In this document: in pieces, positions 7,278 to 22,887 of the stretch
Layout: every line of letters begins with the position of its first letter
Numbering within the stretch: the first letter of the stretch is position 1
NCBI GenBank assembly: GCA_029051525.1
Contig: JAIDKG010000116.1
Location: forward strand, 1-41,518
Direction: 5' to 3'
Length of the DNA stretch: 41,518 nucleotides
Source: Muribaculaceae bacterium
GTDB taxonomy: Bacteria; Bacteroidota; Bacteroidia; Bacteroidales; Muribaculaceae
Position numbers and translations under genes: made by a program
The notes under the pieces: generated by a model
What the model was told of the DNA's origin: nothing
The model's input: the letters and a program-made list of their open reading frames with translations, nothing else
Database searches by the model: none

Positions 7278-8195
7278 TTAAATTTTTTCTTTTTCAGTGC
7301 CGGGAGAGGGAGCGGATTGCTGCGGCTTGCGATAGTCGCGCAGGCGCCCCTCTTTTCGCGCCTTGGCATAGAGTCCGGCTATGAGCTGACGCTCATATTT
7401 CTGGCCGGCCTCCACTTCGAGGCGCTCGGCTATCAGGGGAGCGGCCACCTCATAGGGCATCACTTCGCCCGAGGGGAGATAGGAGGAGATATGCAGCAGA
7501 TAGGTCATGCCGCCATAGGTAGTCTCGAAGTTCTGCTTGGTGGCCACGAAGATATCGGGGTCGGGGAAGCGATAGGGTATCTGGCGCGCCACGATATCCC
7601 AATCAGTCCATTTATCCTCAAAAAATGAGTATTCGATCGCATCGGTCAGGCCGTAGCGCTCGAGATTGTCGATGGCATCGGGGGTGGCGGTCATCATCCA
7701 GCGGCGTATGTCGGCCAGACGCGAGGCATCGGCCGGAATCTTGACATATAGCCCCTTCATCACCGGACGCTCCAGGATGAGCGACTGCGAATTGGCCCGG
7801 AAGTAGCGCCGGATCGAATCCTCGGGCACACTCCATCGATGAGAGGCCCGCAGACTGCGCCGATAGGATGCCACGATGAGCTTCTTGCGATATTGCGCCA
7901 CCATTCGCTCTATCTCGGCCATGTCGTCGATATTGTCGCGCCCAATGTCGGTGAGCAACATCTGCTCCATCCAGCCATCCACAATCGAATTGAAGAGGGC
8001 TGCGCTGTCGGCCGGAGCTATGCCATGAGGTATGCGTTTCACCACATCGCTCACTGTGAGCGCGGAGTCGCCTACCTCTACTACCACATCCTCCACATCT
8101 GCCTGGACCGCATCGCCACGGCCACATGCAGCCACGCCCCACCCTCCTAAGAGCAGGCCGAGAGCCACATTCACCATATGCCGCATATGTCGCAT
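7278..8195 (-). CDS. SurA-N-like periplasmic lipoprotein without an obvious parvulin domain
   Basis: Lipobox-like GVAAC near N-terminus; VVVEVGDSALTVSDVVKRIP resembles SurA/PpiC N-terminal segment; next to surA. Confidence 0.6.
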   Translation of the reverse strand: MRHMRHMVNVALGLLLGGWGVAACGRGDAVQADVEDVVVEVGDSALTVSDVVKRIPHGIAPADSAALFNSIVDGWMEQMLLTDIGRDNIDDMAEIERMVAQYRKKLIVASYRRSLRASHRWSVPEDSIRRYFRANSQSLILERPVMKGLYVKIPADASRLADIRRWMMTATPDAIDNLERYGLTDAIEYSFFEDKWTDWDIVARQIPYRFPDPDIFVATKQNFETTYGGMTYLLHISSYLPSGEVMPYEVAAPLIAERLEVEAGQKYERQLIAGLYAKARKEGRLRDYRKPQQSAPSPGTEKEKI

Positions 8196-8269: not shown

Positions 8270-8301
8270 CAAAGTTAACAATTATTTCTGATAATAACGA
8301 A
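8270..8301 (-). promoter_or_regulatory. Bacteroidetes-type promoter for the PPIase-surA-ostA-mutL operon
   Basis: On the minus strand TAACTTTG (-7, 8270-8277), 20 nt from a TTCG -33-like element. Confidence 0.5.
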
Positions 8302-8581
8302 ATATGCACCCGTAATAATATATTCTTGCCAGCAACTTACCTATGGAAGTCGCCTGAACTTATTGCGAGGCAGCCATACCCTGCATTTACATTTTTTGTG
8401 GGAAGGGGTCTTACCGTAACAAATCCTTCAGAAAAGCGATTTACCTTTCTTCCCAAACCGGTATATTAACGTGAGAGTATTTCTACTGTCGAATATCAAC
8501 GATGGAAGGCATCGGAGAGTTGGCCGACAATTTCGTCAGATCCTTTCTCTAAGCAACTGAATGTAAAACTAAAAACATCCT

Positions 8582-9376
8582 ATGAACGAACTAAAAGACG
8601 CTCACCGCAAAACTATCAACAAACAGCTGGTGACAGACATCATCTTATTGACTATATTCTGGTTGACAATCTCTCCGCTCATGCTTACCGTCTATAATAA
8701 TAAGAAATATTTGAAGAAATGGGCAATAATTCTCGCAATCATCATCTCCCCGCTTTCACTGTTTGTGCTGCCATTCTTAATCGTAGGGGTTGATTTAGGT
8801 ATAGAAGTGATTAATATTCTCAATGAAAGTCAAACACCGGTAGATAACCAGTCTACAGACCCCTGGCTGGTATCGATTGCCCAAGTGATTGTCATACTGA
8901 TCCAAGCAGCGTGTGACATGATTGTAATCGGAGTTGCCAAGTGCACAGGATGGAACATTAATGAGACAGCGGTATATATATGCGAGTATTTCGCTCCCCT
9001 ATCATGCACATTCATCGCACTTATTGTTGCACTTATCATCCTCAGCAAATTCGGGAAGATGGATAAATACGGCAAATGCTTGTCACTGATACCCCTCTCA
9101 GTAGAAATCTATCAGGCATGGCATCACGTGCAAATCTATCTCGAACACAAAGCCACATATGCCGGCATGAGCATTGACAGTATTTTCCAAACCAGCAAGG
9201 ATTCACTCATACAGATGGCTGTGCACCACTATATTCTGGCCAACACGTATGACTACATCCTTCCCATGATAATCATATTACTCACCGGATTTATAGCAAA
9301 AATAATTTACAATAGAAGGAGAAAGATTCCGGCTCCCTGCCATCCACAAGAATCTCAGATCGCCAGTGACAAGTAA
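8582..9376 (+). CDS. Uncharacterised polytopic membrane protein
   Basis: 264-aa ORF with several hydrophobic segments; low-GC composition compared with flanks. Confidence 0.7.
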   Translation: MNELKDAHRKTINKQLVTDIILLTIFWLTISPLMLTVYNNKKYLKKWAIILAIIISPLSLFVLPFLIVGVDLGIEVINILNESQTPVDNQSTDPWLVSIAQVIVILIQAACDMIVIGVAKCTGWNINETAVYICEYFAPLSCTFIALIVALIILSKFGKMDKYGKCLSLIPLSVEIYQAWHHVQIYLEHKATYAGMSIDSIFQTSKDSLIQMAVHHYILANTYDYILPMIIILLTGFIAKIIYNRRRKIPAPCHPQESQIASDK

Positions 9377-9468
9377 ACAGACAGACACTAAACACCCTCT
9401 CCCCACTCCGCACAGCCGTAGGAACCCTACACGATTACCCCTGATTATTCATTTATCGAAGCAATTCT

Positions 9469-10557
9469 ATGAGTCGATATTATTATCCTTCAGCTCCTGA
9501 TGCTTTATCAGCCAAAAAGATGTTCCTTCGAGAGCATGGATATAAAATACCCCATTGTTTTAAAAACACATGGGGAGCTGGCTATGTTCTATTCGATTCA
9601 AAAGCAGATGTCAATAGTTGGCACAAGGAACATACCGGTCGCCCTTTCTACAAAGAAGAATATGAACCCGGAACAATCTTTACCAAGAATGATGCACTGC
9701 AAGAAATCGAAGAATCATACGGTGATCAGATAGACGAAGTTTTACGTTATCGAAACCCATTAATGCCGATTCTTGCAGTAGGACTTCCTTATTCATTTGG
9801 GAATCAAATGTTACTCAAGTTCGTAAAATCTTCGGATGAAAAAGATATAGAATACAAATTCCATATCCATTATGACGCATTCATTCTTGATGCGACTTGT
9901 GACATTCCTAACAGTACACTGAGAGAACAGATTGTTGCCATTATTTTCAAAATGTTCTACCACAGTCGTTTCAAAAAGCGGATTGAAGGATCTAATCAAG
10001 AGCTTGCTCGCAGAGAAGCAGTACGAAAAGCCGAAGAAGCGGAACGTGAGCGAATAAAGCGAGAAAGTCTATTGGAACAACAACGCAAAGCGGAAGAAGA
10101 ACGTAGGCAACAACGTGAAAGAGAAGAAGCAAAAGAGCGTGAAAGGAAATATCAAGAAGCTCTTGTCCGGTATTATGCCGACTTGGCAAAATATGAATCG
10201 GAGTTGAAAATATACAACGAAGCTATGGCATTGAAGAAACGTTTCACATATGGTGGGCAATTCCCTAATGGAGCATCGTTTATCTGTTTTATAATATTCC
10301 TTGTATTGATATTTTGCTCTTTTTTTCTGACAATGTTGGAAAATACAGTTCCTTATGGAATGTTAGTTCTTTTGGATATAGCCCTGCTTGTTGGAGGATA
10401 TAGGCTAATCTCTAAGAAACTGAACCCATATTTGGCAGAAGAACATTTTGATGAAAATGCATTCCGGCAATGGGAACTACAGAATCCTAACTCTCCATTG
10501 ATAAAATATGTGAGAAACAGTTGGCCTCCATCAACGCCAATCCAACCAACGCGATAA
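9469..10557 (+). CDS. Uncharacterised coiled-coil membrane protein
   Basis: 362 aa; charged Glu/Arg/Lys coiled coil (~175-250) followed by two hydrophobic helices; last ~10 codons lie in a direct repeat. Confidence 0.7.
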   Translation: MSRYYYPSAPDALSAKKMFLREHGYKIPHCFKNTWGAGYVLFDSKADVNSWHKEHTGRPFYKEEYEPGTIFTKNDALQEIEESYGDQIDEVLRYRNPLMPILAVGLPYSFGNQMLLKFVKSSDEKDIEYKFHIHYDAFILDATCDIPNSTLREQIVAIIFKMFYHSRFKKRIEGSNQELARREAVRKAEEAERERIKRESLLEQQRKAEEERRQQREREEAKERERKYQEALVRYYADLAKYESELKIYNEAMALKKRFTYGGQFPNGASFICFIIFLVLIFCSFFLTMLENTVPYGMLVLLDIALLVGGYRLISKKLNPYLAEEHFDENAFRQWELQNPNSPLIKYVRNSWPPSTPIQPTR

Positions 10558-10583
10558 ATTCAGAACTGCCGGCTCACTCGGAA
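10526..10583. repeat. Left copy of a diverged ~58-bp direct repeat flanking the signalling cassette
   Basis: CTCCATCAACGCCAATC...CTCACTCGGAA aligns without gaps to 20836-20893, 49/58 identical by eye, 8 of 9 differences are transitions. Confidence 0.8.
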
Positions 10584-10738
10584 TCTTAAAACATCAACAA
10601 GTGAGCCGCCTTCATACACTCGCCTGTGGCTAACAGCCGGATGAATGGCAAGAATCCTTACAACTATCCGGTCAATCTGCACCGCAAGTCGGGAAAACCT
10701 TTTGATGACCTCACCAAGCTCACATTACTGCCTTACCA

Positions 10739-10805
10739 CTGGCTTAGCTATTCAGTCCCCCCACTTAGGCTTGATCTGAGAGGGGGGACTGAATAGCTAA
10801 GCCAG
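10739..10805. terminator. 24-bp perfect inverted repeat between convergent genes, probable bidirectional terminator
   Basis: CTGGCTTAGCTATTCAGTCCCCCC / GGGGGGACTGAATAGCTAAGCCAG with 19-nt loop; no adjacent T-tract. Confidence 0.65.
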
Positions 10806-10856
10806 CGACAGTGGCAATATTAAAATCCGAAAATACAACGGTTTTTATGGGATTCA

Positions 10857-11951
10857 TTAATCCGCGACACGTTCAGGTTTAAAGAATTGCATCACGGTGT
10901 TTAGTACGTCGGCTTTATTGTTTTCACTTCCCTTTGAGAAATATTCATACATAAATATTCCCGCAATAATCAACAAAACTACAAGCACAATGCCGAGGAG
11001 CAATTTTACCTTTCTGCGCGAAAACTTGGGAATCTTAGGCAGTGATGGCACAGGAATCTGTATGGTCCACTTCTTGTTTTTGCCACCTTTCTCATCTTGC
11101 TTTATCGGCTTTTGGGGCATAGTAGTTACCTCTGCTTCCTGCTCAGCATCAGCTTGTATTACCTGAGATAAGTCGGATTTGCTCTTTATCTTGACTTTAT
11201 CAATTGGTATGAGCCAGCAAGTGTAGTTATCGCGAGTGTTGCCATCGCAGATTGACTTGATTTTAGCGAGTTTTTGGCTATCGTCAAGTTTTTTGTCGGC
11301 AAGGATCTCACAAAGCGCTTCATTTGATAGCTGTTCCAATATACCATCGCAACAGAGAAAGAAGTAATCACCGGCTTGAATGTCATCAAACTGATATACA
11401 TCTGCCTTATATCGTTTCGATAGATGTGGCTGCATCGCGCGGGTGATGATATTCTTCTGCGGGAAATCACGGGCTTCTTCCTCGGTCAGTTCTCCCGCTT
11501 TCAGAAGGTCGTTTACCAGCGAATGATCGGATGACTGATAAAGGATACCTCCGCGCCTTGTTTCGACATTGAAAAGCGACGGACGAATATGATATATACG
11601 ACTATCCCCTATATGGGCGACAAGATAATTATCTTCATTAAGACAAAGACAAGTCATCGTGGTACCCGGTTTTTTTGAAGAGTTGGTATCAATGCTATCC
11701 AACGCATCATACGCTTTTGCCAAACCGGTTTCAAAAGTGGGTATATCAATTTCCGAACACGAGGTGAGATAATCGCCAAGAGCGCTTGCGGCTGTCATAC
11801 TCGCTACTTCGCCATTGTCATGTCCACCCATGCCATCGCACATGATAAATACACGGGTGCGGGTATCCGCACATGACGGATAAAGATAATCTTCTTGATT
11901 ATCCTTTTTCCCTATTTCTGTAAAACACAGAGGTTTCCTGATTTTAATCAT
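10857..11951 (-). CDS. PP2C-family Ser/Thr phosphatase with C-terminal TM helix
   Basis: KKDNQEDYLYP, IMCDGMGGHDNGEVAS, AHIGDSRIY, CCDGILEQL motifs; TM LLLGIVLVVLLIIAGIFMYEYF. Confidence 0.95.
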   Translation of the reverse strand: MIKIRKPLCFTEIGKKDNQEDYLYPSCADTRTRVFIMCDGMGGHDNGEVASMTAASALGDYLTSCSEIDIPTFETGLAKAYDALDSIDTNSSKKPGTTMTCLCLNEDNYLVAHIGDSRIYHIRPSLFNVETRRGGILYQSSDHSLVNDLLKAGELTEEEARDFPQKNIITRAMQPHLSKRYKADVYQFDDIQAGDYFFLCCDGILEQLSNEALCEILADKKLDDSQKLAKIKSICDGNTRDNYTCWLIPIDKVKIKSKSDLSQVIQADAEQEAEVTTMPQKPIKQDEKGGKNKKWTIQIPVPSLPKIPKFSRRKVKLLLGIVLVVLLIIAGIFMYEYFSKGSENNKADVLNTVMQFFKPERVAD

Positions 11952-12499
11952 GCTAATCGGGTTGCTTCTTCGTCAACTATCTTAGACTCTAAAACTATGT
12001 CGGTAGTGCCCAATGTCATGGTGTCTCCGAATTTAAGGATAAGAACGTCTCCTCTATTTATCGGTCTACCATTTAGTTTAACGATGTTTGTAGAATTTAT
12101 TTCAACCAGATGATGCTCATAGCCGGTTGCTTTTCTCACTACGTCAATACGCACATGCTGCCGACTCATATACATATCGGTACTGATTTTAATATCGGCA
12201 GTGCCCGTCTGAGCCCGGCGGCCAATGATGTTCTGACCCTCCCGGAGAAATTGTATCTCGTTAGTTGCCGTTACTCTTATTTGCCCAATGTCTGCAACCG
12301 ATTTCGGAGGCATGACCAATTGAGTGGGCATTTCATCGGCACCTTGGGCACCACGTGCCTGAGTTCCGCTCTGATATACGCTGGCATTGGCCTTGAAGTG
12401 GCATTTGGGACACTCCACAACCATATTCTGATAGCCGGGCACTTCGTTGAACGAAAGTTGCTGATGGCACTCAGGGCATACTATGAATATCTTCCCCAT
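11948..12499 (-). CDS. Zinc-ribbon + FHA domain protein
   Basis: N-terminal CPECHQ...CPKCHF zinc ribbon; FHA signature IIGRR...MSRQHVRI...INSTNIVKLNG; 4-bp overlap with PP2C. Confidence 0.92.
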   Translation of the reverse strand: MGKIFIVCPECHQQLSFNEVPGYQNMVVECPKCHFKANASVYQSGTQARGAQGADEMPTQLVMPPKSVADIGQIRVTATNEIQFLREGQNIIGRRAQTGTADIKISTDMYMSRQHVRIDVVRKATGYEHHLVEINSTNIVKLNGRPINRGDVLILKFGDTMTLGTTDIVLESKIVDEEATRLA

Positions 12500-13422
12500 T
12501 ATACGGTCATGATTGAGTCGGCATCATTTATATAGTCGGGCATATCATCATTAGAGGCGTAAAAAAAGTCGCCCTCCTGAGCCACTTGAACCTCCATGAG
12601 ATCTGCAATATCAATACCCGCTCCGGAGATGTCGTGAATTTCTGATTCCTGAATCTGACCGTCTCCATTATCATCATGTAGAAGAACATCTATTGAGCCG
12701 TTGTTGTCGACATCAACCAACAGGGCCTGATCTCCTTCATGCTCAACCAGTGCGATGTTAATAATCTGGCCGTCTTCATTCTGCACCGCTTCAACTCCGA
12801 GCACACGAATCTCATTATCGATAGGCTCAGCCGAAATCATTTCCGCATTTGCAGGCACAACTTCCGGAGCAACATCATGGTGTTCAACTTCTTGCGCTGC
12901 AGCATAGGTGCTGTGAGAGTTACTATGATGAGACGGAGCAACCTCATTTACGCGGCTCTGATAATCAACCTTCTCTTCCGATGTCAGATTGTCCCACTCA
13001 TCAGCATAATAGGTACCGTAAAGTCTTCCATTATATTCAAAGACACCTCCGGGACCAACTTGTGAACGAGCCTGCGCAAAAGCATCGTTAAAGTTATCAG
13101 CTTCCACATGTGCGTAGCGTATACCTTCATCGTTAGCAAGAATTGCTTGCTCCGGAGCCGGAGCCTCGGGAGTTTCTTCAGTCGCAACATCATCCTGAAC
13201 ATCAACGAGTGCTTCGGGATCGACATTGGGAGTTGAAGCAGAGGCAGTTGTCGCAGCTCCGACAGCGGCACCGACCACAACCCCACCGGCAGCGGCTGCA
13301 ATAGTATTACCTTTTTTAGCTTTTTTAGTCGTTTGTGCCTCCGGCTGCGTCTGAGATGACGGAGTGGCTTGCTCTTTCTGAGCGGGCACATCATTGATGA
13401 GACGGGTTGCTTCGTTGTCCAT
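12499..13422 (-). CDS. Uncharacterised acidic protein with glycine-rich hydrophobic segment and EF-hand-like loop
   Basis: Start re-assigned to MDNEATRLINDVP (13422), 24 nt from a TAAATTTG -7 box; GNTIAAAAGGVVVGAAVGAA segment; DDNGDGQIQESE loop. Confidence 0.75.
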   Translation of the reverse strand: MDNEATRLINDVPAQKEQATPSSQTQPEAQTTKKAKKGNTIAAAAGGVVVGAAVGAATTASASTPNVDPEALVDVQDDVATEETPEAPAPEQAILANDEGIRYAHVEADNFNDAFAQARSQVGPGGVFEYNGRLYGTYYADEWDNLTSEEKVDYQSRVNEVAPSHHSNSHSTYAAAQEVEHHDVAPEVVPANAEMISAEPIDNEIRVLGVEAVQNEDGQIINIALVEHEGDQALLVDVDNNGSIDVLLHDDNGDGQIQESEIHDISGAGIDIADLMEVQVAQEGDFFYASNDDMPDYINDADSIMTV

Positions 13423-13445
13423 ATATGTTGTATTTAATTTTGATG

Positions 13446-13477
13446 CAAATTTAAGATGGTATTTTCTGAATCCCAAG
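13446..13477 (-). promoter_or_regulatory. Promoter for the 13422-10857 operon
   Basis: On the minus strand CTTG-N20-TAAATTTG. Confidence 0.6.
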
Positions 13478-13536
13478 CGTTTTCACTCTTGAATGATGAA
13501 ACTATGGAATTGGTTGATGAAATGTTATTACGACCA

Positions 13537-15045
13537 CTATTCTTTTACTGTCCAAATGTTTGCTTCCGCCGGGAAACCTTTTGCAAGGGTGTGAGTATAT
13601 TCCCCAAGGTAGAGGAAGTAATAATACAGACTGTTTGGTTTGAGACATTCAGCCGAGAGGTAGCGGTTCAACACCCCTAATGGCATCATTAGTATGTTAC
13701 CATTGGGTCCGATAATTTTGTATCCGTGCATACCATTCTCGGAGAAAGTCGTCCAACTGCAACGCTCAATCAGTTCCTCGAACTGTTTTGTGGTCGGAAG
13801 ATGATGCTCAGATAGAAAATCTTTTGGGCGAACAATGTCTCCTGTCTCCAATTGGAATGTGTAAACATCATCATTCATTACAGATTTAGCGATGCCACTT
13901 AATTTTGTTGCCCACTTCACTGATAGACCGAGGTCAAGATATTGCATATCCGAAGGAGGAACCACGCGCGGAGTATCATCAATGCTTTGCTCATCTTTTT
14001 TCGCTACGCTGTAGTTAGATAGAGGTACATTGAGGATGACCGTTTCTTCCACAAATTTAGGTTGCAAATTATCCTGCGGTCGAGAAGTTACAGTCTTTGG
14101 TTCAGAAGTAACTGCGGGAGTATTTATCACAACTGTTTCTTCTGAAGAAGTCGGACTGACAATATGTGTTGGTTCTTCAACCGATTGCTGTCCTAATTCA
14201 CTTAGGAACTGCTGTATTGTCGCCGGTCTCTTGTTCTTTTTAATCTCCATGGCGTGTTCAACGGCATCGGCTATGCGCTGCGACACGCTTGTCGGCAGTT
14301 CCGGCAGTCCGTCTTCGAGGATTTCACTATAGTGAGGCGGTACCAATCCTGACAAGAGATTATAAAGTGTTGCGCCGAGGGCGTAAATATCGGTCTGTGG
14401 AGTAAAGGTTGAAACTCCGCCGGGACGATATTGCTCCACAGGGGCAAAACCATGACTGATACCTACCGGGGTAGTTGAGGTCTGGCCACCACTTGAGTCA
14501 TACTGCTTCGATAGACCAAAATCTATGAGTATAGGCTCATCATCCTCTTTGCGCACCATAATATTGGCCGGTTTCAGGTCGAGATGGTTCATGCTCATGG
14601 AGTGCATATAGCATACGGCGTCAGCTACTTTGCGGATGTATTCTACCGCTTTTGCTTCCGTAAGCGCACCTTGCGACTTTACGATTTGCGAAAGAGATGC
14701 CCCCTCCACATACTCCATCACATAGTACGCAGTGTCATTCTCCTGGAATATGTCATATATAGTAATGATATTCCGATGATTGAGTTTCGAGATATTCTTT
14801 GCCTCCTTGATGAATTTAGCTTTTAGCATCTCAACTATCTCCACTGAGTTTTTAGTGCCAATAGTAAGATGACTTGTATTTTCATCACGGTCACAATACT
14901 CTTTCGGAAAGAATTCCTTTATCGCCACCATCTTGTCAAGCATTGTATGCTCCGCAAGATAGGTGATGCCGAATCCTCCCTGCCCGAGGACACGGAGGAT
15001 TCGGTATTTGCCGTTCTGCAACTCTGTATTAACCGATAACTGCAT
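13537..15045 (-). CDS. Eukaryote-like Ser/Thr kinase 1 with C-terminal Fib_succ_major/lectin-fold-like domain
   Basis: GQGGFGITYLAEH, VAIKEFFPKEY, HLDLKPANI, IDFGLSK motifs; C-terminus YLDLGLSVKWATKLSG resembles that family. Confidence 0.93.
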   Translation of the reverse strand: MQLSVNTELQNGKYRILRVLGQGGFGITYLAEHTMLDKMVAIKEFFPKEYCDRDENTSHLTIGTKNSVEIVEMLKAKFIKEAKNISKLNHRNIITIYDIFQENDTAYYVMEYVEGASLSQIVKSQGALTEAKAVEYIRKVADAVCYMHSMSMNHLDLKPANIMVRKEDDEPILIDFGLSKQYDSSGGQTSTTPVGISHGFAPVEQYRPGGVSTFTPQTDIYALGATLYNLLSGLVPPHYSEILEDGLPELPTSVSQRIADAVEHAMEIKKNKRPATIQQFLSELGQQSVEEPTHIVSPTSSEETVVINTPAVTSEPKTVTSRPQDNLQPKFVEETVILNVPLSNYSVAKKDEQSIDDTPRVVPPSDMQYLDLGLSVKWATKLSGIAKSVMNDDVYTFQLETGDIVRPKDFLSEHHLPTTKQFEELIERCSWTTFSENGMHGYKIIGPNGNILMMPLGVLNRYLSAECLKPNSLYYYFLYLGEYTHTLAKGFPAEANIWTVKE

Positions 15046-15238
15046 TTCTTCAAATATGTATTATTTCTGATTCCGAAATGGCCTCATCTACGCCTATTGC
15101 GACAATCTTCACTTGTTCGTTCTTATTGTTTATGTAATATGTGCCCGTATTAGAGACAGAATATTTGCTGCCATTTATAAGCAGGTACACTGAAACAGCA
15201 TCACTTACTGACCAAAAAAACTCAATTATTTCATCCCG
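14881..15238. repeat. Copy A of a 358-bp direct repeat (kinase 2 3' end + kinase 1 5' end)
   Basis: Ungapped match to 16244-16601 at offset 1363, about nine mismatches by eye. Confidence 0.9.
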
Positions 15239-16408
15239 GGTACAAACATTCATCCCTCGCTTTTGGGAAATTGATATTTTGGGAAACACTCTTGTATCTA
15301 CAATAGGAGAAAGGGCTTGCTCTTCATTAGTTTCAAGAGTTTCAGTCTGCAATATAGCCGTCTCTTCATCAGATGACTCTGATGATTCAATATGCTCATT
15401 TACCGAATTGAGGGATGCGACATCATTGCCATCTGTGACACTTGGTGTACTATCTTTTGAGGCAAAATCTTTAGGCGTGTCGATACATGTCTTGATTACA
15501 TCGCCATCGTTACTTTTAACAGAGAGCGGTTTCTCATCCGATGGTGTAAAGCCCTCAAAATGCTTCAAGAATTCTTCGACTGACTGTGGCCGTTTCTGCT
15601 TCTTCGTTTCAAGGGCATGTTCTACGGCCTCCTTGGTTATATCGCTAACTGAGGAGGGATATTCCGGAATGCCATTTTCTAATATTTCGCCATAGTGAGG
15701 AGGTGTTTTGCCAGTTAGCATTGCAAATAGAGTTGCACCAAGAGCGTATATATCTGTTTGGGGAGAGAAGGATGAAACTCCACCGGGAATATACTGCTCA
15801 ATTGGAGCATACCCATGACTAATACCAACCGGTGTGGTTGACGTTTGACCGCCCGCTGAATCATATTGTTTGGATAATCCAAAGTCAATCAGAATTGGAT
15901 CTCCATCCTTGGCACGAATCATGATATTCGCAGGCTTAATGTCAAGATGGGTCATTGACAACCCATGTATGTGCGAAATCGCAGAAGCAATTTTCATTAG
16001 CATATTTATAGCATTTGCCTCTGACATTGCTCCTTCACACTTGATTTTGGAACTTAAAGATTCGCCTTCGACATACTCCATGATGTAATATGCCGTACCG
16101 TTCTCTTGGAAAATATCAAAAATCTTGACAATTCCCGGATGATCCAACTTTGATATATTCTTAGCCTCTTTGAGGAACTTGGTTTTCAAAGTCTCCACAA
16201 GTTCGGAAGAATTTTTCAAGCCGATAGTAACCTGACTTGTTGATTCATCACGGTCACAATACTCTTTCGGAAAGAATTCCTTTATCGCCACCATCTTGTC
16301 AAGCATTGTATGTTCCGCAAGATAGGTGATGCCGAAACCTCCCTGTCCGAGAACACGGAGGATTCGGTATTTGCCGTTCTGCAACTTTGTATTAACCGAT
16401 AACTGCAT
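15050..16408 (-). CDS. Eukaryote-like Ser/Thr kinase 2 with short C-terminal beta/Ig-like domain
   Basis: Same kinase motifs as kinase 1; C-terminus IIEFFWSVSDAVSVYLLINGSKYSVSNTGTYYINN. Confidence 0.93.
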   Translation of the reverse strand: MQLSVNTKLQNGKYRILRVLGQGGFGITYLAEHTMLDKMVAIKEFFPKEYCDRDESTSQVTIGLKNSSELVETLKTKFLKEAKNISKLDHPGIVKIFDIFQENGTAYYIMEYVEGESLSSKIKCEGAMSEANAINMLMKIASAISHIHGLSMTHLDIKPANIMIRAKDGDPILIDFGLSKQYDSAGGQTSTTPVGISHGYAPIEQYIPGGVSSFSPQTDIYALGATLFAMLTGKTPPHYGEILENGIPEYPSSVSDITKEAVEHALETKKQKRPQSVEEFLKHFEGFTPSDEKPLSVKSNDGDVIKTCIDTPKDFASKDSTPSVTDGNDVASLNSVNEHIESSESSDEETAILQTETLETNEEQALSPIVDTRVFPKISISQKRGMNVCTRDEIIEFFWSVSDAVSVYLLINGSKYSVSNTGTYYINNKNEQVKIVAIGVDEAISESEIIHI

Positions 16409-16601
16409 TTCTTCAAATATGTATTATTTCTGATTCCGAAATGGCCTCATCTACGCCTATTGCGACAATCTTCACTTGTTCGTTCTTATTGTTTATGTAA
16501 TATGTGCCCGTATTAGAGACAGAATATTTGCTGCCATTTATAAGCAGGTACACTGAAACAGTATCACTTACTGACCAAGAAACCTCAATTATCTCATCCC
16601 G
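16244..16601. repeat. Copy B of the 358-bp direct repeat
   Basis: See copy A. Confidence 0.9.
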
Positions 16602-16602
16602 A
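16413..16602 (-). pseudogene. Truncated C-terminal remnant of a third kinase-2-like gene
   Basis: Minus-strand translation RDEIIEVSWSVSDTVSVYLLINGSKYSVSNTGTYYINNKNEQVKIVAIGVDEAISESEIIHI* nearly identical to the kinase 2 C-terminus, no kinase domain upstream. Confidence 0.85.
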
Positions 16603-16808
16603 TACCGTATACTTACGGCGTAACGACATGCGCTACTGTGCCAATCATTGATTCAGAATCTGCTACTACTGTGTCAATCACTTCGACATATTAATATGCT
16701 CTTCCTGCGGATTGAGCACTTGCTTTTATTATGCAAATAGCGGCATAAAAATCAAACTTATTGCTTTTCTCACTTTATATTGGGGGGAATTGCTGAAAAT
16801 CTTGGCTA

Positions 16809-18419
16809 TCAGTCCATCAATTTCATTCCTTCTGGATGATGAGATGTGAATGCTACGCGTGAAGTATTCGATATTTCAAAGCTTTCAGAAGTTGACATAA
16901 GCCTTACAGTCATACTCTTATTCCCATCCACAGCTGTTCCTGATAACCGGTAATCGTCTTCAGGAGATAAGAGCATTGTAAAGTCATTATTCCCATCCTT
17001 ACCGGACAACCGAATTTCATTTCCTTGAATCTGATAGCTCATCACGATGCGGCCACCATATGTAACATTCTTATATATTACTTTTTGAATATGATGGTCT
17101 GTCACTATAAAAGCGAGCATAACGGGGTATCTGTCATTTCTATAATAGAAATCACCCTTATAAAAATGAACGGATTGGCCGTCTTTAATGACGTAAGAAG
17201 AATTTAAAATCTGTTGGTTGGCTGTTAATGATTGAGTTTCATTGACTTGTTCGGTCATAGAATCAGTTGCAACACTTTGTGAGGATACTTCATCTGTGGT
17301 ATCTGAATTAGAATGAATCCAAACAAAAATTACTATACCCAACAGAATTGCCAAAATGACCCAAGTTGCTGAGCGCGATGAAGATTTAACCGGAGCATTT
17401 TGAGGGTTGGGTTCTTGAATTGTTGTCGGTTGTATTGCTATTGTCTTATCGGAATCAGCGATAGAATTACCGGAATTTGTTTTTGATTTTGCCTCTTCTG
17501 ACAGTTCAACAGCAGTCGGTCTATTGGCGGTACTATGGTATTGATTTGAAGATGATGTTTCTTCATTGGCGACAAGTCTGTCACAGAATATTGTTACGTG
17601 CGCCGGCCGTCTACTCCGTGCAGATTGCATAGCTTCTACAATAGCGTCTTTAATCGATTGGGATATAAAAGGAGGTAAGACTACCCCCTTTTCCATGACA
17701 GAGACAGCCATTGGTGGAGTCTCCCCCGTAAGGAGATAATACAATGTAGCTCCTAACGAATACACATCCGTCTGCGGCGAGAATGAGCTTATGGCTCCTG
17801 CATTGTACAATTCGATTGGGGAGTATCCCTGACTGACTCCTTGCATCAAAGTAGAAGTTGCATCTCCATATATGTCATACTGCTTTGATAGGCCGAAATC
17901 AATAAGGATTGGCCGGTCATCGCTGCGGCGCACGACAATATTTGCAGGCTTTACATCGAAGTGAGTCATATTGTGCGAATGGATGTAATCTAACGCATCG
18001 CCGACTTTACGAATATATTCTACGGATTTCGTCTCAGATAACGGACCATTGTGTTTGACCATCTCGTTGAGGTTCTCGCCCTCAATATAATCCATCACAT
18101 AGTAGGCGGTACTGTTTTCTTCGAAGATATCGTGAATCTTGACAATGCCGGGATGGTCAAGTTTCGCAATATTTTGAGCCTCTTTGAGAAATCTATGTTT
18201 AAGCTTTTCAACGGTTTCTGCATTATTCTGGGTGCCAAGTGTAACGTGATTCGTATCATCACGGCCACAAAAGTCTTTTGGAAAAGATTCTTTAATCGCA
18301 ACCAGTTCGTCGAAAGAAGTATGCACCGCAAGATAAGTTATGCCGAATCCTCCCTGTCCAAGGACACGGATGATACGGTATTTACCGTTCTGAAGCACTG
18401 AGCCGTCTTTTAACTGCAT
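16809..18419 (-). CDS. Transmembrane eukaryote-like Ser/Thr kinase 3 with extracytoplasmic C-terminal domain
   Basis: GQGGFGITYLA, HFDVKPANI, IDFGLSKQYD; TM WVILAILLGIVIFVWIHS followed by ~150 aa. Confidence 0.93.
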   Translation of the reverse strand: MQLKDGSVLQNGKYRIIRVLGQGGFGITYLAVHTSFDELVAIKESFPKDFCGRDDTNHVTLGTQNNAETVEKLKHRFLKEAQNIAKLDHPGIVKIHDIFEENSTAYYVMDYIEGENLNEMVKHNGPLSETKSVEYIRKVGDALDYIHSHNMTHFDVKPANIVVRRSDDRPILIDFGLSKQYDIYGDATSTLMQGVSQGYSPIELYNAGAISSFSPQTDVYSLGATLYYLLTGETPPMAVSVMEKGVVLPPFISQSIKDAIVEAMQSARSRRPAHVTIFCDRLVANEETSSSNQYHSTANRPTAVELSEEAKSKTNSGNSIADSDKTIAIQPTTIQEPNPQNAPVKSSSRSATWVILAILLGIVIFVWIHSNSDTTDEVSSQSVATDSMTEQVNETQSLTANQQILNSSYVIKDGQSVHFYKGDFYYRNDRYPVMLAFIVTDHHIQKVIYKNVTYGGRIVMSYQIQGNEIRLSGKDGNNDFTMLLSPEDDYRLSGTAVDGNKSMTVRLMSTSESFEISNTSRVAFTSHHPEGMKLMD

Positions 18420-18522
18420 ATTATGGTATTGTTGTTTTTTTTTGCAAATTTAATTGCTATTCACTTAAGTGTAATCAGGTGTTAAGTGATGATTGATAAA
18501 ACCCCAAAGTTAATTGATGAAA

Positions 18523-19251
18523 CTACTTTTTGCGATACTCCACAATGGTGAGATTATCATCAAATTTGCCCCACATCACCGGGTGTTGACGATTATTTGA
18601 CTGTAGCTTTACCCCATCACTGACATAGTTGAATAGCTCCCGGGCAGTAATCCGTTTATCCTTATTGGTGTCTGCCCCTCCGCCAAGTCCTCTTAGCAAA
18701 TACTTAGTGAAGTATCCGTTTGCAAGAAAGGGGCTTTCGGCTGAGTATTCGTTGCCTCTTGATGATAAGAAAAGCAAAACATTTCCTGCTTTAGGATCTG
18801 ACTCTGCCCCATTCTGACGGATAGCACCGCTATGACAGGCATCGGCAAAAATGAATTTGCTTTTTGCCTTGCACTTCTGCATAATGGAAATCACATCGGA
18901 GTATTTCAATCCTTCTTCAATCTTTGTCATGTCATAGGGGCAGAAGCCTCCGGGATAGCCATGCCCACTGAAAAAAAAGACAATCTTATCATCAGCTTTT
19001 GCACGCGCGAACTGACTCTTCAGGCTTTTGAGTATTTGCGACTTTGTCGCATATTTTCCGGTTATGGTAATCACGTTTAGAGTCCCTCTCCTATAAAACT
19101 CAGACATTGCCTTGGCATCAGCCTCCGTTTTTGTAAGATTCGGCACATTGGGATCTGAATAATTCCCAATACCCACGCAAACAACGTAGGTTTCTGCGTG
19201 AACGGCAAACGCCACTACGCAACTAATCATTAGCGAAATAACGCGTCTCAT
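18523..19251 (-). CDS. Caspase-like (peptidase C14) protein with predicted signal peptide
   Basis: FFFSGHGYPGG (His) and FADACHSGA (Cys) dyad; start re-assigned to MRRVISLMISCVVAFAVHA|ETYVV at 19251, ATGA overlap with the upstream FHA gene. Confidence 0.88.
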   Translation of the reverse strand: MRRVISLMISCVVAFAVHAETYVVCVGIGNYSDPNVPNLTKTEADAKAMSEFYRRGTLNVITITGKYATKSQILKSLKSQFARAKADDKIVFFFSGHGYPGGFCPYDMTKIEEGLKYSDVISIMQKCKAKSKFIFADACHSGAIRQNGAESDPKAGNVLLFLSSRGNEYSAESPFLANGYFTKYLLRGLGGGADTNKDKRITARELFNYVSDGVKLQSNNRQHPVMWGKFDDNLTIVEYRKK

Positions 19252-19961
19252 TTTTCTACGTATTTGCATTTGCAATAAGGGCATGACTGATGATTGCGAA
19301 CAAGCATTTTGTAATTCTTCGCAAGAAGTGAATGTCCGCACTCGGGATTAGGACATACCCAAGCATCATCGAATGCATCTTGGCGGCGTTGTCTTTCTTC
19401 TGCGGTTTCAGCGTTTCTCATGCCCGCAAAACTATATATGTTACCCAACACACCTATACCTGTCAGTGCATAACCGACGGGGCCGAAGAAGAATATTGTG
19501 GGCATTGCGCACATAGTGAATATGCCCAACCCGGTGCGAATCAGGTTTGTCTTTCGTTGTGAATCCGCCATCTCAATATTGGCATTGTTATAATCATCCC
19601 ATACTCTGCGAAGATGCGAAATGTTAAAAGTCTTTACCTCCGGCTGTGTCTTGGGCGAAGCTGTGCCTTGAGTGGCCGGTTTTGCTGAAGTTGATTGAGC
19701 CTGCGGCTTGCTTACAGCTTGAGGCACACCAATCAGTTCAACAAGTGTAGCACTGAAACTTTGTCCCAACTGGATTCTGCTATTAGGTTTTACAGTGGCA
19801 CGGACAATTTCTACGCCGTCTACTTTTGTGCCCGACGGACTCAAGTTCTCTATGATGTAGGTTCCATCACCGTTATCTGTCACCTTGCAATGCTTGCGGC
19901 TTACTGTCGGGTCGGTGATTGGTGTTTTCTGCGTGCCTTGTCGGCCTATGATGATTTCCAT
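19248..19961 (-). CDS. FHA domain + TM + C-terminal zinc ribbon protein
   Basis: IIIGRQG...PTVSRKHCKV...NLSPSGTKVDG; hydrophobic segment; CPNPECGH...CPYCKCKY. Confidence 0.9.
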   Translation of the reverse strand: MEIIIGRQGTQKTPITDPTVSRKHCKVTDNGDGTYIIENLSPSGTKVDGVEIVRATVKPNSRIQLGQSFSATLVELIGVPQAVSKPQAQSTSAKPATQGTASPKTQPEVKTFNISHLRRVWDDYNNANIEMADSQRKTNLIRTGLGIFTMCAMPTIFFFGPVGYALTGIGVLGNIYSFAGMRNAETAEERQRRQDAFDDAWVCPNPECGHSLLAKNYKMLVRNHQSCPYCKCKYVEK

Positions 19962-19962
19962 C

Positions 19963-20340
19963 TTAATTTACGATATAAAGTTGTTTTAGATTTTTAAGAG
20001 CCTCTTTCGATATAGAGATTTCAAGAATCACCGGAGAAACAAAGTCGGTAAGAATCAGTTTCTGACGGGGAATGTTAATCTGAAAGATATATTGCTTGTT
20101 GACTATAAACCGCTTACCAATGCGTATAAACATCGGGTTATCACCTTTGAAACGTTCAGTGAGAAGTCCTTCAATATTTACAAGACTTGTCAGAAGCGTT
20201 GCCTTCGCACCACTGATAAAAATGACATGACAATAGTTCGAGTCAGCCTCAAAGTAGGCCACTCGATCTAACTTCACCTTAATCATCTCATCTCTGGTGT
20301 TGAAGAATAAGGTTGTCTCAGATGCTTTGAAATGGTTCAT
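19963..20340 (-). CDS. Stand-alone LytTR-type DNA-binding protein
   Basis: VAYFEADSNYCHVIFISGAK...SLVNIEGLL...FIRIGKRFIVNKQYI is typical LytTR; no receiver domain. Confidence 0.85.
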   Translation of the reverse strand: MNHFKASETTLFFNTRDEMIKVKLDRVAYFEADSNYCHVIFISGAKATLLTSLVNIEGLLTERFKGDNPMFIRIGKRFIVNKQYIFQINIPRQKLILTDFVSPVILEISISKEALKNLKQLYIVN

Positions 20341-20500
20341 TATATTTTTGACGGGTTACCTTATTATATACCTTAGAATCGCAAAAGGTAAATGTGGGAA
20401 AAGAAAATTGTAGTATCCGTACTGTTCCCGACAGGCTGCTAAGAGTTAGCTCTTAAGTTATTGCCAAACGTCGCTAAAAACAGGCATTTCGTCTCAAATA

Positions 20501-20532
20501 TTTGGAAGGAAGATGAATTATTCGTAATTTTG
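20501..20532 (+). promoter_or_regulatory. Consensus Bacteroidetes promoter TTTG-N20-TAATTTTG
   Basis: TTTG 20501-20504 and TAATTTTG 20525-20532. Confidence 0.7.
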
Positions 20533-20547
20533 CAGAAAATAATTACT

Positions 20548-20748
20548 ATGTGTAACGACAATGTAACTCAAGATAAGAAAGTGAAAAACTTCAAGGGATC
20601 GGCTGTAAAGTCAGGCATCTCCTTTGGGTCAGCATTGGCTATGGTACTCAGCTATTGCACATGGCATTCAGTTGGATGGGCTATAGTTCACGGACTAATG
20701 AGTTGGTTTTACGTTATTTACTTCGTGTTGAAATACGCACACCATTAG
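20548..20748 (+). CDS. Small (66 aa) two-helix membrane protein
   Basis: ATG at 20548 lies just after the promoter at 20501-20532, so the TTG start at 20461 in the ORF track would be upstream of transcription; MCNDNVTQDKKVKNFKGSAVKSGISFGSALAMVLSYCTWHS... Confidence 0.7.
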   Translation: MCNDNVTQDKKVKNFKGSAVKSGISFGSALAMVLSYCTWHSVGWAIVHGLMSWFYVIYFVLKYAHH

Positions 20749-20769
20749 AGCGCGTTCCTTAAAATTTCG
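20745..20769. repeat. Dispersed repeat, inverted copy (TTAGAGCGCGTTCCTTAAAATTTCG)
   Basis: Exact reverse complement of 52-76 and 23062-23086; includes the stop codon of the 66-aa ORF. Confidence 0.9.
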
Positions 20770-20835
20770 TTTTGATCATGGCACAAAGGTAGTCATGTCT
20801 CCGCTATTCTGGCCTTGCGGGGTTTGTGACGTTTA

Positions 20836-20893
20836 CTCCATCAACGCCAATCTGACCAATGCGATGGATTCAGGACTGACGGTTCACTTGGAA
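20836..20893. repeat. Right copy of the ~58-bp direct repeat
   Basis: Aligns to 10526-10583. Confidence 0.8.
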
Positions 20894-20894
20894 G

Positions 20895-20935
20895 CGCAAA
20901 AGAGCTGTGACGCGAGGCGTCACAGCTCTTTTGCG
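20895..20935. terminator. Perfect 19-bp hairpin, bidirectional terminator at 3' end of the PPIase gene
   Basis: CGCAAAAGAGCTGTGACGC-GAG-GCGTCACAGCTCTTTTGCG. Confidence 0.8.
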
Positions 20936-20958: not shown

Positions 20959-22887
20959 TTATTTTACTTTGCCGAGCACTTTGCGGTTGATTACCACGGG
21001 ATAGCGCGAACGGAGATCGGAGAGCCAGTTCTGCTCGAGTTCTTCCTGATAGTCGCTGGTCACCAGACCGCGTACATCACTCACGTCCTCGGGCGCATCG
21101 ATCACACGACCATCGATCACCAGGCAACTTGAGTAGCTCGAATTGGGCGAAGCTACCTCTCCGATGCCAAACATCAGGCTGTCGATCAGCGGGTTCTGTC
21201 CTTTCTGCACCAGCACGCGATCGATCGAGGCCTCTCCTTTATACTCTTTCTTGAGTGTGGCAATGGCCTCTTCCTTGGGGAGTTCGGCGTAGCGGCGCAC
21301 TATGTCGGCAGCTACTGAATCATTCTTGGCCTGCACGAGCACTCCCTTGGCGCGGGGCACATCCCAAGTATAGTTGGAGCGGTTGCGATTGAAGTATTCT
21401 TCAAGTCCTTCGGTATCTTTGGCGGCCTTATCCCATACATTGCGCACACTTGCCTCATAGAGGAGCGATCCGTTGGTATACTCATGGAGCAGGTTGCGAT
21501 AGTCGGTCTGATTGGCCTCCAGCCAAGCCTCTTCGATGGCTGTGAGGGTATTGTTTTCGAAGTTGGCTATCGATGCATCGAGGAATTTGCCTCCCTGCAC
21601 AGGGTTGGGCTGGCGCCCCTCATGCATCGAGGCCACAAGTCCCGACAGTGGTATGGAGGTCTTGCCTACCTTGAGGAGTTCGCGGGTGGCATAGCCGGGA
21701 GCGGAGAAATTGACGTAGAAGAGTGAATCCACACCGTTGGTGGCTACATATTCGCGGAGTTCGGCCACCAGAGCGTCGTTGAGACGCGCTTTGTGTTTCT
21801 TGGCGAGCATGGCCGTCTGATGCTCTTTGATCATTGCATAGCGCTCATCCTGCGGATTGCTGATGCGTGCGAGTTCGGCGGGCTTCATCTCCTGAAGCGA
21901 GGGGGGATCCTTGCGGTCGATCTTGCTGATGATGTGCCAGCCGAACTGTGTGCGCACCGGCTCGCTGATCTCTCCTACGGGGAGGGCGAATGCCACGCTG
22001 TCGAATTCAGCCACCATCATGCCTGAGCCGAACCATTGGAGCAGGCCACCCTGACGTGCCGAACCCTTATCATCGGAATAGCGCACTGCCATCTCCTCAA
22101 ATTTGGAGGGCTGGGCCTTCACAACGTTGTAGATGCTGTCGATGCGGGCCTTGCGTGCGACCGATGCCTCGGCATTGCCATCCTGATCGAGAATCAGGAT
22201 ATGCGCCGCGCGCACCATGCCGCGGGCCGGACGCCGACCGCCACATTTGATGATATGATATGCCACAGGGCTCTCCACTACATCCGATATCTCACCGGGC
22301 TGCAGCGAGAAGGCTGTCTCTTCAAAATGATAGGGATAGCGGCCGGCCGGAATATAGCCTAAGCTGCCGCCACGCTGATTGGAGCCGCGGTCCTGGCTGT
22401 AGGTCTTGGCCAGCTCGGCGAAATCGCCTCCGGCGCGGGCCACATCGCGCAGCGAGTCAAGACGCGCTATCGATGCTGCGTTGCCCTCGGCCGAGGGGGA
22501 TTTGAAATACATGATATGGCTCGTCTGCACCTCCTCGAGGCTACGGTCGTAGGCCTCTTTCACAAGCTGGTTGAGATACACCGAGTCGACCATATAGGGA
22601 GCAGCCAGGTCGTGGCGATACTGCTCCATCTCCTGGCGGAATGCAGCGGTGGTGTCGATACCGGCGGCCATGGCATCGGCCACTTTCAGACGGTAGTTGA
22701 CAAACATCTCCACATACTCATCGATCGGCTGCGGAGCCAGCTGCTGCTGGGAGTTCTTGTGGTAAAGATATTCAAATTCGGATTTGGCCACGTCAACTCC
22801 GTTGACGGTCATTATCACCGGGTCTTTGGCGGCCCAGGCCAATGCGCATACGCCAAGCCCGGCCCCCAACAGAAGTTTAGTCTTCAT
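20959..22887 (-). CDS. Periplasmic peptidylprolyl isomerase with two parvulin (PpiC) domains
   Basis: Signal peptide; GGSLGYIPAGRYPYHFEETAFSLQPGEIS and GGLLQWFGSGMMVAEFDSVAFALPVGEIS repeats. Confidence 0.9.
   Translation of the reverse strand: MKTKLLLGAGLGVCALAWAAKDPVIMTVNGVDVAKSEFEYLYHKNSQQQLAPQPIDEYVEMFVNYRLKVADAMAAGIDTTAAFRQEMEQYRHDLAAPYMVDSVYLNQLVKEAYDRSLEEVQTSHIMYFKSPSAEGNAASIARLDSLRDVARAGGDFAELAKTYSQDRGSNQRGGSLGYIPAGRYPYHFEETAFSLQPGEISDVVESPVAYHIIKCGGRRPARGMVRAAHILILDQDGNAEASVARKARIDSIYNVVKAQPSKFEEMAVRYSDDKGSARQGGLLQWFGSGMMVAEFDSVAFALPVGEISEPVRTQFGWHIISKIDRKDPPSLQEMKPAELARISNPQDERYAMIKEHQTAMLAKKHKARLNDALVAELREYVATNGVDSLFYVNFSAPGYATRELLKVGKTSIPLSGLVASMHEGRQPNPVQGGKFLDASIANFENNTLTAIEEAWLEANQTDYRNLLHEYTNGSLLYEASVRNVWDKAAKDTEGLEEYFNRNRSNYTWDVPRAKGVLVQAKNDSVAADIVRRYAELPKEEAIATLKKEYKGEASIDRVLVQKGQNPLIDSLMFGIGEVASPNSSYSSCLVIDGRVIDAPEDVSDVRGLVTSDYQEELEQNWLSDLRSRYPVVINRKVLGKVK

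Follow-up and report, generated by a model that had tools for sequence, protein, structure and literature searches.

A Mobile Kinase, FHA, and PP2C Signaling Module of Bacteroidota with a Putative Envelope Role

Introduction

Between two conserved chaperone genes of a Muribaculaceae bacterium lies an island of Ser/Thr kinase, PP2C phosphatase, FHA, caspase-like, and LytTR genes that is one instance of a signaling module spread among the Bacteroidota by horizontal transfer. The island is carried by contig JAIDKG010000116.1 (assembly GCA_029051525.1), which was analyzed over its whole length of 41,518 bases (the window) and which comes from a 2.49-Mb, 87%-complete metagenome-assembled genome. 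It is almost certain, in our judgment, that the island is an inserted, conserved module that moves laterally, and we put at about 0.6 the probability that the best overall explanation is a mobile kinase/FHA/PP2C module with an envelope role. An earlier note on this DNA, made from the sequence alone, regarded this combination of genes as unusual; it is instead recurrent, being present at several hundred Bacteroidales loci and reaching other Bacteroidota. We found no description of the module as a system in the open-access literature, and Ser/Thr phosphorylation in gut Bacteroidota has, to our knowledge, been little explored.

Results and Discussion

An Inserted and Horizontally Acquired Island

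In genomes of the same genus and of the same family, recQ, PPI642, PPIa, surA, ostA, and mutL are contiguous, and in six same-genus genomes the gap between the peptidyl-prolyl isomerase (PPIase) genes PPI642 and PPIa measures ~100–320 bp without an insert. In the window this gap holds a cassette of 12.6 kb with a GC content of 42.5%, compared with 57.4% in the left flank and 55.2% in the right flank. This agrees with the earlier note, which saw AT-richer DNA splitting the surA/PPIase/ostA/mutL operon from the two-parvulin PPIase gene and took it for an island between conserved chaperone genes, and comparison of gene order indeed reveals empty sites in congeners. The nearest relative that we found (G540, with a PPI642 protein 79% identical) has an empty site of ~200 bp and carries a module of its own on another contig, and none of the island proteins has a match in 16 flank loci that lack the island. 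The insert sits between the terminator of PPI642, a perfect hairpin (20895–20935) that is intact at its right edge, and the promoter region of PPIa, which is left intact at its left edge; thus, neither flanking gene is disrupted. We found no direct repeats at the insertion ends, neither an integrase nor phage genes in the island, and no tRNA in the window, and there were almost no tRNAs among the matches listed for the module loci scanned. Two sister genomes carry a module ~8 kb from the PPI642–PPIa gap, downstream of cstA. In these genomes the gap itself (L160:3182–4310; L161) contains two unrelated small genes, which suggests that it may attract insertions to a mild degree.

Relatives of FHA2 occur in only 20 of 149 family genomes. 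The closest, at 72% identity, belong to other genera (G058 and G120), and two same-genus matches reach ~35%. Similarly, the LytTR protein shares 89% identity with its G058 counterpart and only 59–61% with those of G536 and G537, genomes in which PPI642, surA, and cstA are 74–82% identical to their counterparts in the window. Because the identities of the core genes are at odds with those of the housekeeping genes, we conclude that the island was acquired horizontally, and these discordant identities, together with the patchy distribution across the family, uphold its description as laterally acquired; it is also compact, as the earlier note had it. The module also occupies different sites in related genomes. 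Phage and viral collections yielded no close match to the island, and among plasmids there was only a distant caspase from Runella.

A Conserved Core in Bacteroidota

A caspase profile search of GTDB genomes returned at least 490 relatives, and we examined the 80 best loci (the FHA2 alignment A1, with 18 sequences, was too divergent for a GTDB pattern scan, and the caspase alignment was used instead). At a distance of up to 10 kb from the caspase, these loci encode orf325 in 71 cases, FHA1 in 68, FHA2 in 67, a kinase in 66, PP2C in 65, and LytTR in 60; as the loci were picked by the caspase, the counts say nothing on the frequency of the caspase itself. The core genes are nearly always co-oriented, and their common order is LytTR, FHA2, kinase, orf325, caspase, FHA1, PP2C, and kinases. 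The 80 loci are from Bacteroidales-type records, bar one that is titled Clostridium and may be misnamed, and carriers of the module include the isolates Odoribacter lunatus and Bacteroides caecigallinarum. According to the earlier note, the island would be called into question if its genes stood at this locus in all relatives with matching composition or if the parts did not co-occur elsewhere; the locus is empty in congeners, and the neighborhood search recovered each other core gene in most caspase-bearing loci.

A search seeded on FHA2 at the order and phylum level found the core of FHA2, orf325, FHA1, PP2C, and kinase in other Bacteroidota, where the caspase or LytTR is often absent from it. 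The conserved core comprises FHA2, orf325, FHA1, PP2C, and at least one Hanks-type kinase, usually with LytTR in front, and an exported caspase-like protease is added in many Bacteroidales modules. A plasmid of Runella rosea has orthologues of FHA2, orf325, FHA1, PP2C, and the caspase in one row.

These data bear on the possibility that unlinked signaling genes gathered here by chance, or that the contig is chimeric, with no joint function. The window is a contig of a metagenome-assembled genome and cargo differs from locus to locus, as such an explanation would have it. However, the same gene set and orientation, in near-constant order, are seen in tens of independent assemblies, isolates included, and the nearest relatives also carry related modules, and we therefore consider an accidental assemblage highly improbable.

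A Threonine Motif Linking Kinases, orf325, and FHA1

From the sequences of its proteins, the module quite probably works by kinase–FHA threonine phosphorylation with reversal by PP2C. Most members preserve the catalytic and ligand-binding residues: the kinases keep VAIK, HxDxKPxN, and DFG, the metal motifs DGMGG and GDSR of PP2C are retained in 70–71 of 84 homologues, and the His–Cys dyad of the caspase (H98/C140) is invariant in alignment A4. The phosphothreonine-binding residues (GR, SRxH) of the FHA readers are likewise conserved, with SRxH present in 77 of 80 FHA1 homologues and S21, R22, H24, and four Cys invariant in FHA2.

After homologues had been filtered to <50% identity, with expectations taken from 300 shuffles, the motif [DE]-x-T-x-[LIVYF] was observed 78 times versus 11.4 expected (shuffle maximum 24) in the disordered N-terminal regions of orf325 proteins; the corresponding counts are 48 versus 5.5 (maximum 15) for the linkers and C-termini of FHA1 proteins and 43 versus 24.7 (maximum 38) for the tails of the kinases. 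Versions of the motif with Ser, Asn, or Lys are at or below expectation, and there is no motif excess in PP2C, FHA2, the caspase, or LytTR. Several orf325 proteins have 2–4 copies, and the copies in the window are EATRLI (orf325), EATRLA (FHA1), EETVVI and EETVIL (STK1), and EETAIL (STK2). FHA domains bind phosphothreonine, and specificity for Thr is therefore a prediction of kinase–FHA wiring; the enrichment fits a putative wiring in which phosphothreonine and FHA domains connect a kinase with its substrate, a reader, and an eraser.

Proposed Mechanism and Role

A single transmembrane segment is predicted for most PP2Cs and kinases, and the caspase carries a signal peptide. Among 134 cargo open reading frames (ORFs) within the module span are 24 with BspA-type LRR, nine with Sel1, and four with WG domains, as well as FGE domains; cargo content varies among loci, and the kinase tails bear Sel1, FGE, LRR, and PEGA domains. 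The exported caspase, the BspA-LRR cargo, and the kinases and PP2C that span the membrane suggest a part in sensing and response at the envelope. Thus, of the three roles that the earlier note had suggested, we favor envelope stress or sensing, and neither phage defense nor competition.

We propose that the kinases, many of which have a transmembrane segment and an outside domain, would react to a signal from the envelope by phosphorylating the Thr of the [DE]-x-T-x-[LIVYF] motif in disordered tails, both their own and those of orf325 and FHA1. FHA1 and a membrane-associated FHA2 would bind these phosphothreonines and build a complex at the inner membrane, and the membrane-anchored PP2C would undo the phosphorylation. 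The orf325 protein may span the membrane and convey the phosphorylation state to the domains that it has outside, as well as to the caspase in the periplasm. The probable substrate of this caspase is orf325 or exported BspA-like cargo, and LytTR probably governs transcription of the operon. The likely role of such a pathway would be envelope sensing and surface remodeling. We infer only tentatively that the output is envelope sensing and remodeling with proteolysis by the caspase. It is a rather doubtful further step to see here a novel transmembrane system of Bacteroidota in which phosphothreonine read by two FHA proteins inside would control, via orf325, a caspase-like protease outside the cytoplasm, that is, an inside-out kinase-to-caspase pathway on a mobile cassette.

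Several points weigh against this scheme. The sequences behind the motif counts are homologous, a dependence that the 50% identity filter lessens and does not remove, and shuffles provide no formal probability; moreover, the hydrophobic residue at +2 of the motif differs from the classical pT+3 rule. Plain hydropathy predicts a transmembrane segment in only 37 of 125 orf325 homologues, which makes membrane crossing uncertain. Many distant members lack the caspase, which therefore cannot be a universal output, and the region upstream of LytTR showed no LytTR-site repeats that are conserved, which leaves autoregulation unsupported.

The module could instead serve anti-phage defense or abortive infection, with kinases that sense infection and a caspase that kills or arrests the cell, as in the kinase-kinase-phosphatase (KKP) clusters discussed below. 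The island kinases match PADLOC kinase profiles (PD-T4-6, MAD6) at ~1e-50, the distribution of the module is patchy, and a few loci have DUF2971/PDC-S31, YhcG/PDC-S02, or reverse transcriptase genes among their cargo. However, the kinase matches are generic (MAD6 at 113–124 bits against a cut-off of 460), and the PADLOC scan found no curated defense system over cut-off and no other system genes. Cargo is dominated by exported BspA-LRR proteins, neither viral contigs nor phage records yielded a close relative, and the signal peptide of the caspase argues against action in the cytoplasm. We therefore regard a general defense function as unlikely; for some loci it is possible, given the candidate defense families matched by a few of the 134 cargo ORFs.

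Post-translational control of a contractile injection system, akin to threonine phosphorylation of the type VI secretion system (T6SS), was raised by the 76-kb Runella rosea plasmid, where FHA2, orf325, FHA1, PP2C, and the caspase occur with a T6SS-type tube and sheath, TssF, TssN, and TssK. For Bacteroidales we reject this explanation and consider it very improbable overall. A search of the window's genome, which is 87% complete, detected no TssD (the T6SS tube), no genome among the 149 of the family belongs both to the 20 with a module and to the five with TssD, and none of 37 carrier genomes has a sheath above cut-off. These findings also speak against a role in interbacterial competition. 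The plasmid (NZ_CP030851.1; L166–L168) combines the module core and the T6SS-type cluster with PAAR, HopA1-like, and glutaminase genes and a separate kinase.

With a mobile kinase/FHA/PP2C module of envelope function as the preferred reading, the analysis names a recurrent system for which phosphosites (E-x-T-x-Y/F/L/I), readers, and an eraser are predicted and a protease is the candidate output. Its wiring is testable via peptides and phosphoproteomics in cultured carriers. Movement between species and BspA-like exported cargo suggest a role in the surface adaptation of gut bacteria.

Gene Content of the Island

The features are listed in table 1. Three Ser/Thr kinases, a PP2C, two FHA proteins, a caspase-like peptidase, a LytTR regulator, and uncharacterized genes had been named from the sequence, and all the named domains were found in their places. 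The island holds three of the seven Pkinase matches of the whole genome, in which FHA1 and FHA2 contain the only FHA domains found.

Table 1. Features of the Island and Its Flanks (Window Coordinates)
Feature	Coordinates	Strand	Description	Evidence
mem264	8582..9376	+	Cargo membrane protein, ~5 predicted transmembrane segments	Hydropathy; no Pfam/NCBIfam match
orf362	9469..10557	+	Cargo; soluble N-terminal part, coiled coil, 2 predicted transmembrane segments near C-terminus	
PP2C	10857..11951	-	Phosphatase (putative eraser), one C-terminal transmembrane segment	PF13672 8e-9; transmembrane prediction
FHA1	11948..12499	-	Zinc ribbon, Thr-motif linker, FHA domain, C-terminal EEATRLA	PF00498 2e-8
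orf325	12499..13422	-		AlphaFold2 (AF2) model domains; in 71/80 loci; Thr-motif enrichment
STK1	13537..15045	-	Ser/Thr kinase, tail motifs EETVVI and EETVIL	Pkinase 6e-41
STK2	15050..16408	-	Ser/Thr kinase, tail motif EETAIL	Pkinase 2e-39
STK3	16809..18419	-	Transmembrane Ser/Thr kinase, extracytoplasmic C-terminal domain	Pkinase 6e-39; transmembrane segment near residues 350-368
Caspase-like (C14) peptidase	18523..19251	-	Signal peptide, SGHG/DAC dyad, EF-hand-like loop DxNxDxxITAxEL	
FHA2	19248..19961	-	FHA domain, hydrophobic hairpin, C-terminal zinc ribbon	PF00498 3e-11
LytTR	19963..20340	-	Stand-alone DNA-binding protein, first gene of leftward operon	PF04397 2.5e-9
orf95	20461..20748	+	Small hydrophobic ORF at island edge, uncertain gene	
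Whole insertion	8270..20890	.	Approximate ends	GC contrast; contiguous flanks without insert in congeners
PPI642	20959..22887	-	Two-parvulin PPIase, right flank	Pfam; homologues adjacent to PPIa in relatives
PPIa	7278..8195	-	Left flank	Flank comparison with relatives

The caspase-like protein matches PF00656 (Peptidase_C14) at 2e-18, with 67.5 bits over a cut-off of 21.4, and scores 73 against NF047832, under the cut-off of 140. Its AF2 model has a mean-confidence score (pLDDT) of 92.8 and a fold that matches GSU0716, MALT1, and metacaspases; the modeled caspase fold and the His–Cys dyad are those of the Peptidase C14 family. The ATG at 19251 is more likely to be its start than the GTG at 19341, because it overlaps the FHA2 stop by 4 nt and is followed by the signal peptide. 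The LytTR protein scores 37.7 bits against a Pfam cut-off of 22.6.

The orf325 protein, for which the ATG at 13422 is the more likely start, consists of a disordered N-terminus with the Thr motif, a Gly/Ala-rich hydrophobic segment, a GPGGVF domain, an EF-hand-like domain, and a PDYxNDA C-terminus. Its AF2 model contains two small confident domains, and the PDB holds no analogue at E ≤ 0.001. The C-terminal motif PDYxNDA(D) (window ~12502–12570) is conserved in roughly half of the homologues and is a candidate docking or cleavage site. In Bacteroides caecigallinarum and relatives (L133, L135, L136) a single module can contain as many as three orf325 paralogues, one of them ~432 aa long. Behind these come a BspA-LRR gene and a gene for a small exported coiled-coil protein, the latter found again and again, in 23 loci.

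STK1 and STK2 (13537–16408) are 57% identical and near-identical at their N-termini, which suggests a putative tandem duplication. By eye the tail of STK1 is Lcl_C/FISUMP-like, and it has no Pfam match. As for cargo, a relative of mem264 (37% identical) lies inside module locus L067, and one of orf362 (66%) lies within module L065, flanked by a kinase and orf325; orf362 has no further match in the 149 family genomes, and orf95 has no homologue in the module loci. Genes for RelE, HEPN, and YhcG nuclease stand between or beside core genes at L069:16551–16901, L068:10734–11147, and L075:6437–7609.

Comparison with Known Systems

The island differs from a PknB/Stp1-type PASTA kinase system in that its kinases score 159–165 bits against the NCBIfam PASTA kinase model (cut-off 450) and its PP2C 149 bits (1e-43) against the Stp1 model (cut-off 230). 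It is likewise distinct from the MADS and PD-T4-6 defense kinases, for which scores are under cut-off and the full gene set was not found. With the TerY-P triad and other vWA-kinase-PP2C clusters it shares an adjacent kinase and PP2C (PMC7159879); there is no vWA match in the island, and a vWA gene neighbors the Runella version. The caspase has the fold and His–Cys dyad of bacterial C14 caspases, such as EACC1-associated and conflict-system members, but differs in having a signal peptide and neither a STAND NTPase nor an EAD domain.

KKP clusters, which have been reported in some Bacteroidetes (PMC11341870), are laterally mobile as the island is and similarly place a PP2C beside two or more kinases. 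However, they are defined by a PP2C followed by a cold-shock-domain kinase and an FHA-fused kinase, and STK1–3 have neither a cold-shock domain nor an FHA domain. The FHA proteins of the island are separate, an exported caspase is present, and the location is not in a prophage.

The T6SS threonine phosphorylation pathway (PpkA, PppA, Fha) has, as outlined in part by PMC5995506, a Hanks kinase as writer, a PP2C as eraser, an FHA protein as reader, and a Thr switch. The island also brings Hanks kinase, PP2C, and FHA protein together, but no secretion machine was found in its genome, and it has as extras a second FHA protein (two in all), orf325, LytTR, and the exported caspase. The GarA/OdhI system (PknB/PknG) of Actinobacteria differs in phylum and in lacking a caspase, orf325, and LytTR, and its FHA protein is a soluble metabolic regulator. 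Like the island, it combines an FHA domain with an acidic-Thr motif in the adjoining N-terminal tail, and its ETTS site next to that domain offers a precedent for the motif described here (PMC12321487).

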